From an uncultured Flavobacteriales bacterium (GTDB lineage: Bacteria; Bacteroidota; Bacteroidia; Flavobacteriales_D; CALLUQ01), in assembly GCA_938010565.1 (NCBI GenBank), contig CALLUQ010000188.1:1-33596 (forward strand): a stretch of DNA of 33,596 nt, written 5' to 3'. The position numbers and the translations under genes are program-made. The stretch's first letter is position 1, and the number at the start of each line of letters is the position of its first letter. Shown one piece after another: positions 6,609 through 32,835 of this stretch. The notes under the pieces were generated by a model that was given only the letters and a program-made list of their open reading frames with translations, was not told the origin of the DNA and searched no databases.

Positions 6609-6812
6609 AAATACAATACAACTGCTCCTTGCACAACAGCCAGAGCTTTCAGACAAATCCATGTGGAAAACTGTTTGTTGGCAAGGCCAGCTGCTATCCG
6701 GGCAATGGTTAAAAAGTACCCAATCAACCTTATACGTCTTCAACCGCTCATGTTGGCCACAACCGTTCCGGAAATTGTAAAGAAAAGCAGTGCATGAATA
6801 CCCGCGAATGGC

Positions 6813-6820
6813 TAATTTTG
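6813..6820 (+). promoter_or_regulatory. -7 promoter box that decides the start at 6827
   Basis: TAATTTTG matches TAnnTTTG exactly and ends 6 bases before the ATG at 6827, predicting a leaderless or nearly leaderless mRNA. The earlier in-frame ATG at 6794 would lie upstream of this promoter. Confidence 0.45.
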
Positions 6821-6826
6821 TGCTTC

Positions 6827-7180
6827 ATGGATTTTGAACTGGAAAAAAAATTTCGCGATGCGATCCGACCGCTTGCGGAGCAGATAGGTGAAGTGCCTGA
6901 CCTGGAGTCGGTTATTTTTCTCATTGGCGTACAAGAACTGGGACAGGGCGTACGCAATTTTAAAAAAGATGAAAAGCTACAGCTGATGCACATTGCCGTT
7001 TGCACCTTGTTGGAGCCCTATGGCTATTACCGTTATGAAAAAAATGACACCGACGGCTGGCCTCATTTCAAAAACATCAAACCTCTACCTCTTCTGAACG
7101 AAAAGGAGCAGAAAAAGCTCATGAAAGAAGCCGTGATTGATTATTTCGCAGCTTTAAAACACTCCGATCAGAAAATATAA
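6827..7180 (+). CDS. Conserved-type hypothetical protein
   Basis: A 117-residue soluble protein beginning MDFELEKKFRDAIRPLAEQ. It is acidic and helix-rich, with a segment ESVIFLIGVQELGQG and a conserved-looking core MHIAVCTLLEPYGYY followed by DGWPHF. There is no signal peptide, membrane span or known catalytic motif. I have the impression of a Bacteroidota-restricted family of about 115 residues but cannot name it. The start is set at 6827 because of the promoter box; the alternative 6794 would add 11 residues. It converges with the lipoprotein gene at 7201-7587. Function unknown. Confidence 0.75.
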   Translation: MDFELEKKFRDAIRPLAEQIGEVPDLESVIFLIGVQELGQGVRNFKKDEKLQLMHIAVCTLLEPYGYYRYEKNDTDGWPHFKNIKPLPLLNEKEQKKLMKEAVIDYFAALKHSDQKI

Positions 7181-7200
7181 TAAGGACGGAAAATGTACGT

Positions 7201-7587
7201 TTAGGGCACGTCGATCTCAAAAGTAGTTTCGGAAGACTCATCCTCTACCACTTTCACGACCCCAATAGCAGTATGCGCATCTTTGGTAATTTCCACCTGA
7301 AGTACAAATAAACCGGCCTGCCCCTTCCGGAAAAGGTGGGTGTAATTAAAAACGGCTTCGCCCAACTCGTTGGTAGTGGTTTCTTGTTCAATGTCATTGC
7401 GAATATCATGCGGATTTCCATTGCCTTCGGTATACAGATGAACATTAGCTCCTGCAACAGCAGTAATGCCATCAGCGGCTTTTACTACCTTTATGCGGGC
7501 AATGGTCTCTTTCTCCTTTCTACATCCGGTAAAAACCAGAGCCATTACCACTATTGATAAAAGACCGGAACGCAGAATGCTTTTCAT
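7201..7587 (-). CDS. Small lipoprotein with carboxypeptidase-regulatory-like fold
   Basis: A 128-residue predicted lipoprotein. The N-terminus has basic residues, a hydrophobic stretch and a lipobox VFTGC, with Cys22 as the lipidation site. The mature part (VAGANVHLY..., TTTNELGEAVFNY) resembles one repeat of a carboxypeptidase regulatory-like or Ig-like beta-sandwich, common in Bacteroidota surface proteins. The start at 7587 puts the signal peptide at the N-terminus; an upstream in-frame start at 7647 would bury it. Specific role unknown. The gene is transcribed alone, divergent from pheS. Confidence 0.75.
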   Translation of the reverse strand: MKSILRSGLLSIVVMALVFTGCRKEKETIARIKVVKAADGITAVAGANVHLYTEGNGNPHDIRNDIEQETTTNELGEAVFNYTHLFRKGQAGLFVLQVEITKDAHTAIGVVKVVEDESSETTFEIDVP

Positions 7588-7593
7588 ACTATG

Positions 7594-7621
7594 TTGAAAT
7601 TCGTTGGAATTCGTAATTTTG
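7594..7621 (+). promoter_or_regulatory. Candidate promoter of pheS
   Basis: TTG at 7594-7596, a 17-base spacer, then TAATTTTG at 7614-7621, an exact TAnnTTTG. It would produce a leader of about 100 bases before the pheS start at 7726. I did not find a convincing leader peptide or T-box in that leader. Confidence 0.4.
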
Positions 7622-7725
7622 TCGGCTCCTTCCCGAAGAAGCAACACTGCAATTTAAGGCTTTTTTATATAAAGATATATAATAAACCTTCCGGGATGGG
7701 GTTTCACAGGAGAAAATGAAGCGTT

Positions 7726-8748
7726 ATGTTGACCAAAATAGCCGTGTTAAAACAAGAAATAGAAGCCTTTTCGGCTTCCACCCGAGATGACGTAGAACAA
7801 TTTCGGGTCCGGTATCTTGGGCGAAAAGGGGTCCTCCCTGCTTTGTTTAAAGCCTTTCGCACGGTTCCGGTCCATGAGAAAAAGCAGTTTGGCCAGGAGT
7901 TGAATGCATTGAAAAACCTGTTGGAGGATAAGGTCAATAGGCTCAAAGAAGAACTGGCCGACTGTGGTGATTCTCCTGCCAAAGGCGTCGACATGACCCT
8001 CCCTCCCGAAATGCAGGCACTGGGATCACGTCATCCCATTTCCATTGTGCAAAACGAAATAACCGACATTTTTTGCAAAGCGGGTTTCAAAGTAGCGGAC
8101 GGACCGGAGATCGAAGACGATTGGCATCAGTTTTCAGCATTAAATTTTCCTCCGGAACACCCTGCCCGCGATATGCAGGATACCTTTTTTGTAGATAAAG
8201 GAGCACATGAAATGTTGCTTCGTGCACATACTTCAACGGTTCAGGTTCGGGTCATGGAAAGCCAATCTCCTCCCATTCGTTCGCTGATGCCTGGTCGGGT
8301 TTATCGGAACGAAACCGTATCGGCACGTGCCAATTGTTTCTTTCATCAGGTAGAAGGATTATACATTGATAAAGGCGTTTCTTTTGCCGATCTGAAACAA
8401 CTGCTCCTGTATTTTGCACGTGAAATGTTTGGCAAAAAAAGCGATATCCGCATGCGGCCGTCTTACTTCCCGTTTACGGAACCAAGTGCAGAGGTAGATG
8501 TGAGTTGCTACATTTGCAACCAAAAAGGATGCAATGTTTGTAAACACACCGGTTATCTCGAAATCATGGGTTGCGGCATGGTAGACCCCAATGTGCTGGA
8601 AAATTGTGGCATAGATCCGAAAGTGTATTCGGGATATGCCTTTGGAATGGGCGTAGACCGCATTGCGATGCTAAAGTATAATGTAAACGACCTTCGTGTG
8701 TTTTTCGACAACGATGTTCGTTTTCTGAAACAGTTTACATCGGCCTGA
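7726..8748 (+). CDS. pheS: Phenylalanine--tRNA ligase alpha subunit
   Basis: A 340-residue catalytic subunit of the heterotetrameric class II PheRS, which charges tRNA-Phe. An N-terminal coiled-coil domain (about 1-90) binds tRNA. The class II core follows: motif 2 region RSLMPGRVYRNETVSARA, then RMRPSYFPFTEPSAEVDV, and motif 3 GYAFGMGVDRIAML. A CYIC...CNVC cluster before motif 3 fits the zinc-like Cys4 insertion of many bacterial PheS proteins. pheT is not adjacent, so the beta subunit must be elsewhere. The stop is only 8 bases from the convergent pgk stop. Confidence 0.97.
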   Translation: MLTKIAVLKQEIEAFSASTRDDVEQFRVRYLGRKGVLPALFKAFRTVPVHEKKQFGQELNALKNLLEDKVNRLKEELADCGDSPAKGVDMTLPPEMQALGSRHPISIVQNEITDIFCKAGFKVADGPEIEDDWHQFSALNFPPEHPARDMQDTFFVDKGAHEMLLRAHTSTVQVRVMESQSPPIRSLMPGRVYRNETVSARANCFFHQVEGLYIDKGVSFADLKQLLLYFAREMFGKKSDIRMRPSYFPFTEPSAEVDVSCYICNQKGCNVCKHTGYLEIMGCGMVDPNVLENCGIDPKVYSGYAFGMGVDRIAMLKYNVNDLRVFFDNDVRFLKQFTSA

Positions 8749-20491: not shown

Positions 20492-21229
20492 CTATATCTC
20501 CACCCGGGAACAGTAAGCCTTTTGACGGAGGAATTGGTAGGGGCCTTTTATACGAACCGTTTCCAGATCCGACAGTCCGTTTTTTCCTTTCCAGGCATTC
20601 CTATCCTGCAATAAAAAGTCTCTTTCGGGGTTTACGAGGCTGCTGATTTTTTTGGAGTGAATGTGTTTCATCTCTACATAACTGCCTGTCCGGGGTTTCA
20701 CAATCCGAAGCCCCCGTTCAACGGTTCGCAGGTAAAGCTCATCATCTTCCGCACCCCAACCCCAAAAGTTATTGGGAAAACCATTGACCTGAACAAAGTC
20801 ACGCATGTTAAAAGAACAGGCTCCTCCAAAAAAGCCTTCCAGATGACGGTATTTATTCCAATTGGCCGCCAGATGAATTGGCGTGTCCGGATACTGACCG
20901 TAAAATGCAAACAATTGTCGGTCAGGCAAAAGGTCTACATCATGAAAAATGCAATAATCGCATCCCATATCCAAGGCTTGCATGAAACCAACATTCAGCA
21001 GCTTTCCCCGATTGAATTTTCGCCCGTCATGGCTTTGTTCCACGACAAGTATCACAAAATCCCGGTGGTGCAATTCGGTTAAATAACGGTTCATGAAAGG
21101 GATGAAAACCGACAACTGTTTGCTCCGTTTCTGGTACGCGTTATCCCGAAAAGGAACGATGATCGCCAACTTAGCGAATATCTCCTCTTCTCTCTGATAC
21201 GGCAATCCGGTTTTAGCAGATAGGATCAT
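20492..21229 (-). CDS. GT7 (beta-1,4-galactosyltransferase-like) glycosyltransferase
   Basis: A 245-residue GT-A-type enzyme that closely resembles the catalytic part of animal beta-1,4-galactosyltransferases (GT7). It shows LAIIVPFRDN, FNRGKLLNVGF, the metal-binding motif HDVDLLP (96-102), GGACSF (135-140), VQVNGFPNNFWGWGAEDDE (147-164) and a MKHIH segment. It probably transfers galactose or a related sugar to a surface glycan or glycoprotein. There is no membrane segment, so it is cytoplasmic. The ATG at 21229 shares one base with the preceding stop (TGATG); the TTG one codon earlier is less likely. Last gene of a three-gene unit. Confidence 0.85.
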   Translation of the reverse strand: MILSAKTGLPYQREEEIFAKLAIIVPFRDNAYQKRSKQLSVFIPFMNRYLTELHHRDFVILVVEQSHDGRKFNRGKLLNVGFMQALDMGCDYCIFHDVDLLPDRQLFAFYGQYPDTPIHLAANWNKYRHLEGFFGGACSFNMRDFVQVNGFPNNFWGWGAEDDELYLRTVERGLRIVKPRTGSYVEMKHIHSKKISSLVNPERDFLLQDRNAWKGKNGLSDLETVRIKGPYQFLRQKAYCSRVEI

Positions 21230-22095
21230 CAATCGGGGGAGTTGGCCTCTCTTTTGGATTGAAAATAAAGCAATGCTCCCTTCAGTTCATTGATGACCCG
21301 AAAGTGTGGATGTTCTCCGTATTTGGGTCTGGAGTCAGCGGTCATTTGCAAGCCCTTCAGCCAGGCATCGATAAAGCCCTGTTCATACATGGATGCATAA
21401 TACGCCCCTCTTCCGATATCATTGTCTTCGCGCAGTTTCATCACCTCACCCCTGGCTTTCCTTTGATGGTGGTGGAATACCCTCAAACCGGGGAGAAATG
21501 CCCCGCTGAAACCTTGCAATGAGGCACGGCCAACCAACGCTATGTCTTCACAGCGCATATCGGTACCGGCTCCCATGGCGGTATCAAAACCGCCAATGGC
21601 ATCAAATACCGAACGATGAACAACCATATTGGCCCCTTGTATCAACCCTGCGGGGATAAAAGTGCGCGGAGGGATCAGCTGAAAATCCTCTTGGTAATTG
21701 ATGCTTTCCATGGCATCCTGCTGATCCCACAACAAAATTTGGCCGCCGCAAAATTGAAATCGATCCCTATTAAAATCGTGGAATAAGGCCTCAAAGTAAT
21801 CGCCCTTCAAATAACAGTCATCATCTGTAAATACGAGCAACTCTCCCGACGCCTTTTGTATGCCCCTATTGCGAGCGTGGCTCAGGCCTGTTTGTTGCTG
21901 GTTTTCAACCACTACCCTAAAAGCCACTTCCGCGGCAAAAGCCTGCATGATCTCTAAGGTGTTGTCCGTGGAGTGGTTGTCAATGAGCACGAGTTCAATA
22001 TCGTATTGCAGCATTGCTGCCAAAGGAAGTTGGTGTAGCGCACGGTAGAGTTGTGTTGCCCGGTTTCTGGAGCATAGGATCAAACTGGTTTTCAT
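21229..22095 (-). CDS. Family 2 glycosyltransferase
   Basis: A 288-residue GT-A enzyme of family GT2, cytoplasmic. The nucleotide-sugar fold begins TSLILCSRNRATQLYRAL, then LVLIDNHSTDNT (36-46), SHARNRGI, and the metal motif FTDDDC with Asp91-93. The acceptor region has GAGTDMRCEDIAL with Glu183-Asp184 as candidate catalytic base, and HHHQRKARG after it. The donor sugar cannot be deduced. It begins 5 bases after the upstream two-domain transferase and overlaps the GT7 gene by one base, so the three act as one translational unit. Confidence 0.9.
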   Translation of the reverse strand: MKTSLILCSRNRATQLYRALHQLPLAAMLQYDIELVLIDNHSTDNTLEIMQAFAAEVAFRVVVENQQQTGLSHARNRGIQKASGELLVFTDDDCYLKGDYFEALFHDFNRDRFQFCGGQILLWDQQDAMESINYQEDFQLIPPRTFIPAGLIQGANMVVHRSVFDAIGGFDTAMGAGTDMRCEDIALVGRASLQGFSGAFLPGLRVFHHHQRKARGEVMKLREDNDIGRGAYYASMYEQGFIDAWLKGLQMTADSRPKYGEHPHFRVINELKGALLYFQSKREANSPD

Positions 22096-22100
22096 ACCTG

Positions 22101-23615
22101 CTATCCTTTAAAAGGGTGGGCAATGGCAAACTTTTCTTCTATTCCTTCCGGTACCGGTGGCAACCATTGGGAGTAGATCTCGGGCCAGTCGATCATTCTG
22201 ATGCGGCACTCGCGGCAAGCCCAGCCAATAAGCCAATCAAAGCTGGTCAGGCCTTTGTAGAGCGGACGATTTAACAGCGTCTGGTTTATGCACCAGGGCG
22301 GGCGCTCCCGGGCAAAGTCCGGATGGAGAAAATACCGGGTTTCATATAAATGTTTCGCCACATCCCTTGTAAACCCAATACATCCTCCTTGAATGGAGAA
22401 CAGGGTCTCCTGATGCTGTACCGTACCAAAAATGGCAGAATAGTCGGGCAGTTTCTTAAACTTTTTAAAAACCCGGGTATCCGGATCGATCTTAAATAGG
22501 TACTTGCTGTTCGTCGCTTCTAAAAAGTGACGAAGCATTTCATGCACAATTTTACCTCCGTGCCGGATCGGCATTAGGTTTTCTCCGTAAAAAAAGATGC
22601 CATGGTACGCTTCGGTTATTTTTTTAAATGCAGGGTTGGGGTCGCCATCGGAACGTATGATCAATTGGGCGTAGGGGTATACTTTTCGCAATTGTGCCAG
22701 GCAAACTTCCAAAAGGGATAAGTCTTCAAATACATTGATATAAAAAGCCAAATCCGTTTCCAAAAGAGGCAAGGCATTGGGAGGTGACGGCCTGTCTGTG
22801 GGCCCATCAACGGGTGTTACCCATTCCCATTTTTGGGCGTCTTGCTTTTGCAGACCAGGTTCATTGGAATAACCTCCAACATAATAACGCAACGTGAAAG
22901 CCTCGCTTTGTACGAGCGTTGCTCCCGATCGTATAACGTTGTCTAAAAGCTTGTCATCCTCGGCCTTGTTTTCAACAAACTCCCGATAAGAGAAATCAGA
23001 GGGCATGGGGTTTTCTGCCATCAATCTACGTTTGAGCAGCCACGCTCCCGTGATCACGCGGTAGTGAAACCCCTCAATAGCGCATTCCTTTATCTCATTA
23101 GACCCTTTGCTAACTATGCCTTTTTGCAGCAGATCGGCGTATTTTTCTTTACCCAAGGCCTGGGTTCTACACCAAGGCCACTGCTCTTCCAAAAACGGAG
23201 AATCATTCCGATAAAATACTTTGATGTGGGAATAGGCTGCATCTGCTTGTTCTTTTTGGGCTGCTTCATAAAGCAACCTCAGGTGAGAAGGCTCATATTG
23301 ATCGTCATCATCCAGCAGGCTTACCCAGTCCGTCCAAGCCCATGCTGTCAAGCGATTTCGCCGGTCGGCCAATAGTTCCGGTCCGCTTCGCTCGTTTTCG
23401 CTTCTGGCTATTTCAAACCACGCAAAGTTTGGGGTAAATTGATAACGTTCTTGCAGGAATTGAATGGTAGCGGCACATTCATCGACCAGAATAAGGTGAA
23501 TCACCTTGCCCCGGTAATCTTGCCGCCTGACGGATTCGATGCATTTTTTCAACAAAAATGGTCGTCCTCTTGTAACGGTTAAGGCGGTAATTGGGGCATG
23601 TACTTCCTGACTCAT
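22101..23615 (-). CDS. Two-domain glycosyltransferase
   Basis: A 504-residue protein with two GT-A-like halves. Residues about 7-250 are a GT2 domain (ITALTVTRGRPFLLKKCIESV, metal motif SLLDDDDQYEPSH at 99-111, and an AEDDKLLDN segment at 218-226). Residues about 285-500 look like a second, different transferase domain with LIIRSDGDPN, the acidic motif FKIDPDTRVF (374-383, Asp377 and Asp379) and FSIQGGCIGF. Two transfer steps in one polypeptide, as in bifunctional polymerases, is an inference. It is the first gene of the unit, with the glmS terminator 76 bases upstream. No membrane segments. Confidence 0.8.
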   Translation of the reverse strand: MSQEVHAPITALTVTRGRPFLLKKCIESVRRQDYRGKVIHLILVDECAATIQFLQERYQFTPNFAWFEIARSENERSGPELLADRRNRLTAWAWTDWVSLLDDDDQYEPSHLRLLYEAAQKEQADAAYSHIKVFYRNDSPFLEEQWPWCRTQALGKEKYADLLQKGIVSKGSNEIKECAIEGFHYRVITGAWLLKRRLMAENPMPSDFSYREFVENKAEDDKLLDNVIRSGATLVQSEAFTLRYYVGGYSNEPGLQKQDAQKWEWVTPVDGPTDRPSPPNALPLLETDLAFYINVFEDLSLLEVCLAQLRKVYPYAQLIIRSDGDPNPAFKKITEAYHGIFFYGENLMPIRHGGKIVHEMLRHFLEATNSKYLFKIDPDTRVFKKFKKLPDYSAIFGTVQHQETLFSIQGGCIGFTRDVAKHLYETRYFLHPDFARERPPWCINQTLLNRPLYKGLTSFDWLIGWACRECRIRMIDWPEIYSQWLPPVPEGIEEKFAIAHPFKG

Positions 23616-23691: not shown

Positions 23692-23721
23692 AAAAAACCA
23701 CGCCTTCGGGCGTTGTTTTTT
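23692..23721 (-). terminator. Bidirectional intrinsic terminator after the glgA-like/DUF4270/glmS unit
   Basis: Stem ACGCC (23700-23704), TTCG loop (23705-23708) and GGCGT (23709-23713), extended by an A-run at 23692-23697 pairing with a T-run at 23716-23721, with one mismatch. Each strand reads stem then T-run, so it can end transcription both ways. It lies about 125 bases past the glmS stop and just upstream of the glycosyltransferase unit, separating the two. Confidence 0.8.
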
Positions 23722-27054: not shown

Positions 27055-27879
27055 TTATTCTGCAAATATCGTGTCGTTTTCAGCAATTCTGTCGTAAAAC
27101 TCCGAATACTCTTTCACATACGTCTCTTCATCCTGATAGCTCAGTTTTGCTGCATCAAGGCTTTCGGCAAAGGCAACAAAATCCGGATCCAAGGTGGCGC
27201 TTCCATGAATTACACCATCGGAATAGGTTGCTGCCAACTTATTGATGTTCAGGAAGGAAGGTTCGCTAATGATTTCCAAGTCTTCGGCATTAAAGCCATC
27301 CTGAACCAGTTTGTTGCTCAGTTTGACATCCAGAGAACCATCAAAACCATTTTCATAAGCGGTATAAACCACCTTTGTATCGGCAAAATGAGGATCATTC
27401 ACATAGGCTTTTTTCACATAAAGCGGAAGCAAAGCACTCATCCAGCCGTGGCAATGAATGATGTCCGGAGTCCAACCCAATTTCTTAACGGTTTCGAGAA
27501 CGCCTTTGCAAAAAAACATGGACCGTTCATCGTTATCTTCGAAGAACTTGCCCTTATCGTCCGTAAGAACGGCTTTCCTTTGAAAATATTCTTCATTGTC
27601 GATGAAATATACCTGCATGCGTGCCGAAGGTATTGATGCAACCTTGATGATCAGCGGATGGTCCGAGTCATCAATGATAAGGTTCATCCCCGAAAGCCGG
27701 ATTACTTCGTGTAACTGATGCCGGCGCTCATTGATACAACCGTACTTCGGCATAAACACACGAATCTCCTTACCGGCCTCATGGATGCCTTGCGGAAGAT
27801 TACGGGTAATTTTAGAAATTTCTGTTTCCGATAGGAAAGGAACCGTTTCTTGCGAAACAAAAAGCACTTTTCTTTTCAT
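27055..27879 (-). CDS. Glycogen/starch synthase N-terminal-domain protein, probably not catalytic
   Basis: A 274-residue protein matching only the N-terminal Rossmann half of GT5 glycogen synthase (KVLFVSQETVPFLSETEISK..., RVFMPKYG, DIIHCHGWMSALLPLYVK). Where GlgA has the ADP-glucose-binding K-x-G-G-L motif this protein reads SETEISK, and the C-terminal GT-B domain with the E-x7-E region is absent. Ordinary glycogen synthesis is therefore unlikely, and a sugar-nucleotide-binding or regulatory role is inferred. Automated annotation often labels it glycogen synthase. It is the first gene of a unit with DUF4270 and glmS, divergent from panC. Confidence 0.8.
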   Translation of the reverse strand: MKRKVLFVSQETVPFLSETEISKITRNLPQGIHEAGKEIRVFMPKYGCINERRHQLHEVIRLSGMNLIIDDSDHPLIIKVASIPSARMQVYFIDNEEYFQRKAVLTDDKGKFFEDNDERSMFFCKGVLETVKKLGWTPDIIHCHGWMSALLPLYVKKAYVNDPHFADTKVVYTAYENGFDGSLDVKLSNKLVQDGFNAEDLEIISEPSFLNINKLAATYSDGVIHGSATLDPDFVAFAESLDAAKLSYQDEETYVKEYSEFYDRIAENDTIFAE

Positions 27880-31941: not shown

Positions 31942-32143
31942 CTGAAACCCACCGGTAAACCCATGCTAAAAGCCAAATTATTTGCTTGTGGAACAGAACG
32001 GGAATTGCTACGAACGGACCTGGAATACCACAGGGTATTCCATCCTAAAACAGGCCGGCCCGGCCCCATTCCGATGGGAGGGCTGGTTACCCTTGCTTTT
32101 GTCTCCGGACATGGCGATGACCGGTTATTGCGTTGGATCACCC
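31942..32143 (+). repeat. Left copy of a duplicated TssD 5' segment
   Basis: These 202 bases recur at 33395-33596 with about ten mismatches. The repeat starts 21 bases before the start codon (CTGAAACCCACCGG) and runs into the TssD coding region; its true end lies beyond the window because the right copy is cut. Most mismatches are silent. Confidence 0.9.
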
Positions 32144-32835
32144 ACAGCCCGGAAGGCGAACTTTGTACGTTAACCGCAGCTAAGATCGTATTTTACGAAG
32201 GGAACCAGGATGGGATCGCTCTTTTTGAATACAAATTGAACGATGCCGCTTTGGTGTGTTGGAAAGAAACGTTTCATTCGGCAGGGGATGAACCCATGAC
32301 CGTAACCATGACGATTTCTGCCGCCATACAGGAGGTGAAAGAAATAACCTGGGTAAAGCCTTGGCGGGAAAGTGGGGTGCTTTCGGAGGAAAGGGCTGCC
32401 CATAAAGAAGGAGGAACGGGAGCGACTTTGGGTGATCGTGGGAAGAAAGAGGATGATGGGAGTGTGTTGGAAGGTGCTTTGGAGGATGGGGATAAGGTGA
32501 AAAGGCAAAATGTAGAAGACTTTATATCTCCGCATGCTTATAGTCGTCATAAGTTCGACCCTTCAAGCGTTTCGTCAAGAAGTAGAACTCAATATGGACA
32601 GAAAATGGATGTAGCAGATATACGAGATCAAACGATGAATAATGCGGATGACATTGTTAAGCATTTTGATGATAATGGAGTTCATTATGCAACTACTTAT
32701 AAAAAGACATTCAATCAAAATATAAGTACTAATGCAACTCCAACCAAAGAGTCGAGAGTAATTATAAATCATTTAAATGAGAGTAGATCATCTCAATTTC
32801 CGTACTACAAAAAAGGGGTAACCGATGAACTCTAA
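31963..32835 (+). CDS. tssD: TssD (Hcp) tube protein with C-terminal candidate toxin domain
   Basis: A 290-residue fusion. Residues 1-130 match Bacteroidota type VI TssD/Hcp proteins: beta-rich, with RPGPIPMGGLVTLAFVS, DDRLLRWIT, KIVFYEGN and the late motif LVCWKETFHSAGDEPMTVTMTIS. Residues 136-185 are a charged linker. Residues about 187-285 (HAYSRHKFDP, RTQYGQKMDVADIRDQTMNN, YATTYKKTFNQNIST, SRVIINH, SSQFPYYKK) are a separate AT-rich domain in the position of a toxin. Its His, Lys, Tyr and Arg content suggests an RNase-like polymorphic toxin, but I cannot assign a family. The Hcp part would carry the cargo inside or on the tube. The next gene overlaps the stop by 11 bases. Confidence 0.85.
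   Translation: MLKAKLFACGTERELLRTDLEYHRVFHPKTGRPGPIPMGGLVTLAFVSGHGDDRLLRWITHSPEGELCTLTAAKIVFYEGNQDGIALFEYKLNDAALVCWKETFHSAGDEPMTVTMTISAAIQEVKEITWVKPWRESGVLSEERAAHKEGGTGATLGDRGKKEDDGSVLEGALEDGDKVKRQNVEDFISPHAYSRHKFDPSSVSSRSRTQYGQKMDVADIRDQTMNNADDIVKHFDDNGVHYATTYKKTFNQNISTNATPTKESRVIINHLNESRSSQFPYYKKGVTDEL

Follow-up and report, generated by a model that had tools for sequence, protein, structure and literature searches.

Lactose and the linker of the sugars in cartilage are products of the animal GT7 family. We compared its members with a GT7 protein encoded by a three-gene cassette in the window, i.e. the whole stretch of DNA analysed (contig C188, 33,596 bases, from a 3.0-Mb genome in 211 contigs). 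The genes of the window (DUF4270, BamH-like, and the glgA-DUF4270-glmS block) point to a member of the Bacteroidota as its source. Like B4GALT7 (CAZy GT7; Drosophila 3lw6/4lw6, human 4irp/4irq), the window GT7 has both Pfam halves, the GT-A fold and the DVD, WGWG.EDDE and HxH motifs. The two are about 30% identical; unlike B4GALT7, the window protein has no membrane segment, is encoded in a bacterial operon and carries a 5-residue insert after PFRD. B4GALT1 (GT7), which gave best Foldseek matches, shares the fold and motifs at about 30% identity, but it has Met-x-x-His where the window GT7 has HxH, and its Tyr289 is Phe in the window protein. The E. coli K4 chondroitin polymerase (K4CP) shares the GT-A fold at a low level (10-12% identity) but is a two-domain polymerase. 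GT7 groups with GT2 chondroitin-polymerase domains (PMC7185993). A literature search found nothing on a bacterial GT7 cassette, and we saw no description of it in the "big bacteria" paper (PMC10580974).

Organization of the locus

The three genes lie on the minus strand and run from 23615 to 20492. The first (22101..23615) encodes a two-domain glycosyltransferase of 504 aa, with a GT2 N half containing an LDDDD motif and a GT-A-like C half. The second (21229..22095) encodes a GT2 glycosyltransferase of 288 aa (PF00535, 2.5e-22). The third (20492..21229) encodes the GT7 protein of the beta4-galactosyltransferase family, which matches PF13733 and PF02709 and resembles B4GALT1 and B4GALT7 in sequence and fold. 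This protein has 245 aa from the ATG at 21229 or 246 aa from a TTG at 21232; the TTG start is probably unused, the ATG lying one codon inward. The ATG overlaps the stop codon of the GT2 gene (TGATG), and the gap between the two-domain gene and the GT2 gene is 5 nt (TAGCAGGTATG). The translational coupling claimed in a preliminary description of this DNA was thus borne out, as was the compact coupled operon, its three genes sharing the minus strand and their content being kept in distant relatives.

The upstream neighbour is glmS and the downstream neighbour, convergent with the cassette, is the superoxide dismutase gene (sodA). As had been stated earlier, no transporter, polymerase or membrane gene adjoins the cassette in the window, and no membrane-spanning segment was found in any of the three proteins (highest 19-residue hydropathy 1.06 to 1.45). 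A terminator-like hairpin followed by T's (23700..23713, minus strand) separates glmS from the cassette, so the latter is probably a separate transcription unit; the hairpin call is a consensus match only, weak alone, and 9 terminator-like sites were found against 5 expected.

The order glgA-DUF4270-glmS is syntenic in 10/10 relatives examined, and the stretch after glmS differs among them, which fits a variable insertion site. In G013 and G010 sodA is also nearby, with other genes between. Within the conserved panC/glgA-DUF4270-glmS block, positions 27055-27879 (minus strand) encode only the N-terminal half of glycogen synthase (GlgA), as a separate protein of 274 aa; this short GlgA is a trait of the group, since its length is similar in relatives. 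Positions 31963-32835 (plus strand) encode a 290-aa protein with an N-terminal Hcp/TssD (type VI secretion) domain.

The GT7 protein and the two-domain transferase

The GT7 protein matched PF13733 (Glyco_transf_7N) at 2.3e-15 and 56.8 bits (curated cut-off 27) and PF02709 (Glyco_transf_7C) at 5.3e-22 and 77.7 bits (curated cut-off 23); at the level of sequence, a chance origin of the family match is excluded. Its strong sequence matches in the PDB were B4GALT1 and B4GALT7 only (E 1e-25 to 2e-28). An AlphaFold2 model built from an 18-row alignment had a pLDDT of 84.3 and a pTM of 0.85. When it was searched with Foldseek, B4GALT1 and B4GALT7 filled the first 30 places among the PDB matches, with E values as low as 4e-19 and a TM to query of 0.65-0.77, giving a GT-A fold of B4GALT topology. 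Chondroitin synthase and K4CP followed with much lower scores.

The protein contains the motifs HDVDLLP (residues 97-103), FFGGACSF and NGFPNNFWGWGAEDDE, and the residues R75 (FNR), D98, D100, W157, E162, D163, H190 and H192 are all present. Both Asp residues of the DVD metal motif (residues 98-100; 20933..20941, minus strand), as well as E162 and D163 of the acceptor-loop/catalytic-base motif WGWGAED (residues 157-163; 20744..20764, minus strand), are invariant in the 18-row alignment. HIH at residues 190-192 (20657..20665, minus strand) provides candidate metal ligands, as HIH/HLH does in B4GALT7. The HxH pair is common to the window GT7, B4GALT7, the Thiotrichaceae sequences and one viral row, and only its first His is kept in the remaining bacterial and viral members aligned. 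Nothing suggests that the predicted enzyme is dead. The preliminary description had recognised a GT7 homologue with the full motif set of vertebrate beta4GalT enzymes. Both Pfam halves and the B4GALT matches in sequence and fold confirm the homologue and its motifs, and the claim also stands after a check for missing metal-binding Asp residues, as D98 and D100 are in place. The label "vertebrate" was too narrow, H190-I-H192 being of the B4GALT7 kind.

Mutants of B4GALT1 show that its Tyr289 keeps out UDP-GalNAc. In the window GT7 the aromatic F135 stands at the place of this residue of the bovine enzyme, and R75 at the place of bovine Arg228. Because Phe135 replaces the tyrosine that excludes UDP-GalNAc, UDP-Gal would be the likeliest donor, and we infer only that F135 and R75 may favour it over UDP-GalNAc and UDP-Glc. 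The basis for the role of Arg228 in donor choice is the R228K mutant of B4GALT1 (PMC7185993).

In the two-domain protein, residues 16-145 form a GT2 domain (Pfam, 1.6e-14), which also occurs in Streptomyces plasmids (31%). The AlphaFold2 model of this N half was poor, with a pLDDT below 50. The C-terminal domain (residues 276-504; 22104..22790, minus strand) has DPDTR as a DxD-type motif, and its QGGC, PPW and DWPEI are conserved in every copy. It had no Pfam match (E 0.01 for the window protein, E 1 for a homologue) and no credible sequence match in the PDB. Its AlphaFold2 model (pLDDT mostly 60-90) was GT-A-like by Foldseek, the best matches including GT6-type GT-A enzymes at 10-14% identity. 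The likeness to GT6 (ABO transferases, Bacteroides BoGT6a) is one of fold only, with 10-13% identity and a TM-score to target of at most 0.51, and no sequence match to the GT6 family model was found. Only its fold says that the C-terminal domain is GT-A-like; it is a candidate for a new transferase family.

Distribution of GT7 and of the cassette

A pattern scan for GT7 in 84,980 species genomes, one per species, found at least 30 loci; it requires exact short motifs in the genome contigs, so the counts are lower bounds, and the carriers are mostly MAGs. Among them were those of Parabeggiatoa (54% identity to the window GT7), Achromatium palustre (52%) and a Simkania MAG (40%). Further loci belonged to a Chitinophagaceae MAG, a Taibaiella MAG, Azospirillum species, a Roseomonas record, SAR86, a Planctomycetaceae MAG and a gammaproteobacterial MAG. 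These numbers agree with the earlier statement that such enzymes are uncommon in bacteria, and a test for an ordinary widespread bacterial GT7 clade found none. Ordinary Bacteroidota enzymes were considered as relatives and rejected: 51/395 other genomes of the phylum matched the window GT7 (P0001), nearly all in the C-terminal part only, and two of these matches that were examined, with a 7C-like end only, are GT2 enzymes of the general K4CP type.

Viral contigs contained 197 GT7 relatives, the best 80 of the 197 reaching up to 46% identity, and the window GT7 had no match in 50,697 GenBank phage records. Because GT7 is abundant in viral contigs, the animal GT7 family lies within a broad diversity of prokaryotes and viruses. 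A viral origin of the cassette was rejected, as its other proteins are encoded in none of the viral loci fetched. In the IMG/VR contigs L062, L065, L083, L084 and L090, GT7-like proteins of some 480 aa occur in close groups of two or three; those of L062 adjoin a radical-SAM protein, and their extra region looks LamG-like by eye.

On plasmids, GT7 was seen only as a distant one on Azospirillum megaplasmids. It is present in many Azospirillum, where it is about 31-34% identical to the window GT7. On an Azospirillum brasilense megaplasmid (L028:664-5768) a TPR/GT41 (OGT-like) gene and a GT10 fucosyltransferase gene are followed by GT7, which suggests galactose on an O-GlcNAc-type protein glycan there. 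In the Planctomycetaceae MAG (L038:1367-2626) a single protein combines TPR repeats with a GT7 domain.

The motifs and fold of the window GT7 resemble those of B4GALT, as they would if the gene had recently been acquired from an animal or other eukaryotic host. However, its closest kin are from Thiotrichaceae (55-57% identity over the core), and the GT2 and two-domain proteins travel with it. A second tree placed the four cassette GT7s together with modest support (87/26). With four animal sequences in the GT7 tree, the AU test rejected a clade of the query and the animal enzymes (p-AU 0.013) but did not reject one of the cassette and B4GALT7 (p-AU 0.108). Such an acquisition is highly improbable, and a special tie to animals is not supported, the family extending across viral contigs and scattered bacteria.

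Among the genomes searched, the same gene set was found elsewhere only in uncultured giant sulfur bacteria, which belong to another phylum. All four cassette domains are present at 43-54% identity in Candidatus Parabeggiatoa (L033) and Candidatus Achromatium palustre (L034). In L033 the genes for GT7, the fused two-domain protein (6756-8339, 44% identity), a second copy of the C-terminal domain, GT2, a sulfotransferase and a DUF1796 protein lie in one direction, and an ABC exporter is 2.4 kb from the cassette. In Achromatium the cassette genes are within about 6 kb, split and partly inverted, with two sulfotransferase genes, and the two-domain protein is itself split. Parabeggiatoa sp. 1 has the cassette on two contigs (L032, L151), with a second C-terminal-domain copy in L151 as well, and its sulfotransferase is of another Pfam family. 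Sulfotransferases thus adjoin the cassette in 3/3 sulfur-bacterial genomes. Like the window locus, these sets have four catalytic domains, and in L033 the fused protein; they differ from it in the sulfotransferase and DUF1796 genes and in gene order. The three-gene order, singled out earlier for comparison in relatives, is therefore conserved in its content but not in its arrangement.

The GT2 proteins of the Parabeggiatoa and Achromatium cassettes are 49-51% identical to the window GT2 (49% in L033), and the C-terminal domain is 46-55% identical to the Thiotrichaceae copies. The insert after PFRD reads NAYQK in the window GT7 and NPFQN or NPLQD in the Thiotrichaceae cassettes, and this sequence is limited to cassette proteins. 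Within the Parabeggiatoa order the C-terminal domain is in 2/43 genomes (both Parabeggiatoa), and within the Achromatium class in 1/369 (Achromatium alone). It was found in 0/298 other genomes of the window's order and in no viral contig, phage or plasmid record. A GT7 profile search found no other member in the same 298 genomes, the whole two-domain protein had one other weak, N-terminal match among 297 genomes of the window's phylum, and the cassette was absent from the remaining sampled Bacteroidota and Gammaproteobacteria.

Since the cassette is absent from the 298 genomes of the order, and since the relatives keep the order glgA-DUF4270-glmS but vary in what comes after glmS, the cassette was presumably shared horizontally between the phyla. 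There was no compositional signal of transfer: the cassette does not differ from its neighbours and host in GC or codon usage, so any transfer would date far back or have come from a donor with a similar composition.

Possible products of the cassette

We give an even chance to the reading that the cassette helps to assemble a surface glycan with galactose in it, for which genes elsewhere would provide the export. For the donor and acceptor, the linkage, the order in which sugars are added, the export and the sulfation, we infer the following scheme. The three genes would form one horizontally shared glycosyltransferase cassette with four GT-A-type catalytic domains, whose enzymes would add sugars stepwise in the cytoplasm onto a lipid-linked or similar glycan precursor. 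GT7 would add a beta-1,4-linked galactose, or a close sugar, from UDP-Gal, with the metal held by DVD and HxH and with Asp163 as the putative catalytic base. The finished unit would then be exported by machinery encoded elsewhere to give the surface glycan, which in the sulfur bacteria is probably sulfated.

The genome itself has such machinery outside the window. Contig C57 (1520-11984; L189) encodes a sugar-phosphotransferase, a flippase and four sulfotransferases, together with two further proteins (567 and 458 aa) that match no Pfam family. Besides the initiating sugar-phosphotransferase, a WecG-type enzyme is the single glycosyltransferase recognised there. As regards a Wzx/Wzy-dependent capsule or EPS operon, the flippase and the initiating transferase are thus on C57 and not at the cassette. 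A remote partnership of the two loci is plausible because the export locus is short of transferases and the window transferases lack export; lipid-linked assembly and the link to C57 are suggested by the export genes missing beside the cassette rather than by a positive tie. The genome has about eight sulfotransferases, with further matches on C126, C25, C154 and C24, and the organism probably makes sulfated glycans. A Sulfotransfer_4 search of the genome was silent, as were its controls. Compared over five contig stretches, the organism's sulfotransferases showed no evident orthologues of those beside the Thiotrichaceae cassettes, the one weak match having 22% identity.

The preliminary description had named a protein or an existing glycan as what the pathway decorates. 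The enzymes might indeed build sugars stepwise in the cytoplasm straight onto a protein (O-linked on a surface or secreted one, for instance), and GT7 would attach galactose at a later step. No flippase, polymerase or ligase is beside the cassette in the window or was recognised adjoining the Thiotrichaceae cassettes, although the flippase locus on C57 makes this a local argument only. The OGT-like GT41 gene beside the Azospirillum GT7 and the Planctomycetaceae fusion also suggest protein acceptors in those bacteria. However, no GT41 or TPR gene was seen with the cassette, the Azospirillum GT7 is a distant relative, none of the carriers has an evident gene for an acceptor protein next to the cassette, and the exporter near the L033 cassette points the other way. 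We regard direct protein glycosylation as possible but doubtful. A role of the cassette in finishing or altering a lipooligosaccharide core or a glycolipid, instead of a repeat-unit polysaccharide, is quite unlikely. A few stepwise transferases without a polymerase would fit a fixed oligosaccharide, and the sulfotransferases of the sulfur bacteria would fit decoration of a short glycan, but there is no positive sign, and the genes recognised beside the cassette include no heptosyltransferase, waa-type or lipid-sugar gene.

Assembly of a surface glycan, the reading we prefer, could be taken further. The cassette might represent an undescribed pathway for a sulfated glycan that contains galactose and resembles animal glycosaminoglycans. 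Giant sulfur bacteria and a member of the Bacteroidota, which may live together, would have exchanged it, and the C-terminal half of the two-domain protein might found a new glycosyltransferase family; we consider this extended proposal unlikely. GT7 has been studied almost wholly as an animal family, and here a soluble bacterial member has an intact B4GALT7-like active site, with the other cassette members conserved across phyla. The cassette GT7 would be a soluble enzyme that is tractable in the laboratory, and it may lead to a beta-galactosylated and possibly sulfated glycan in bacteria; the C-terminal half of the two-domain protein is a candidate transferase domain without a Pfam model. 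The cassette as a whole offers a link, open to testing, between giant sulfur bacteria that are uncultured and a member of the Bacteroidota.
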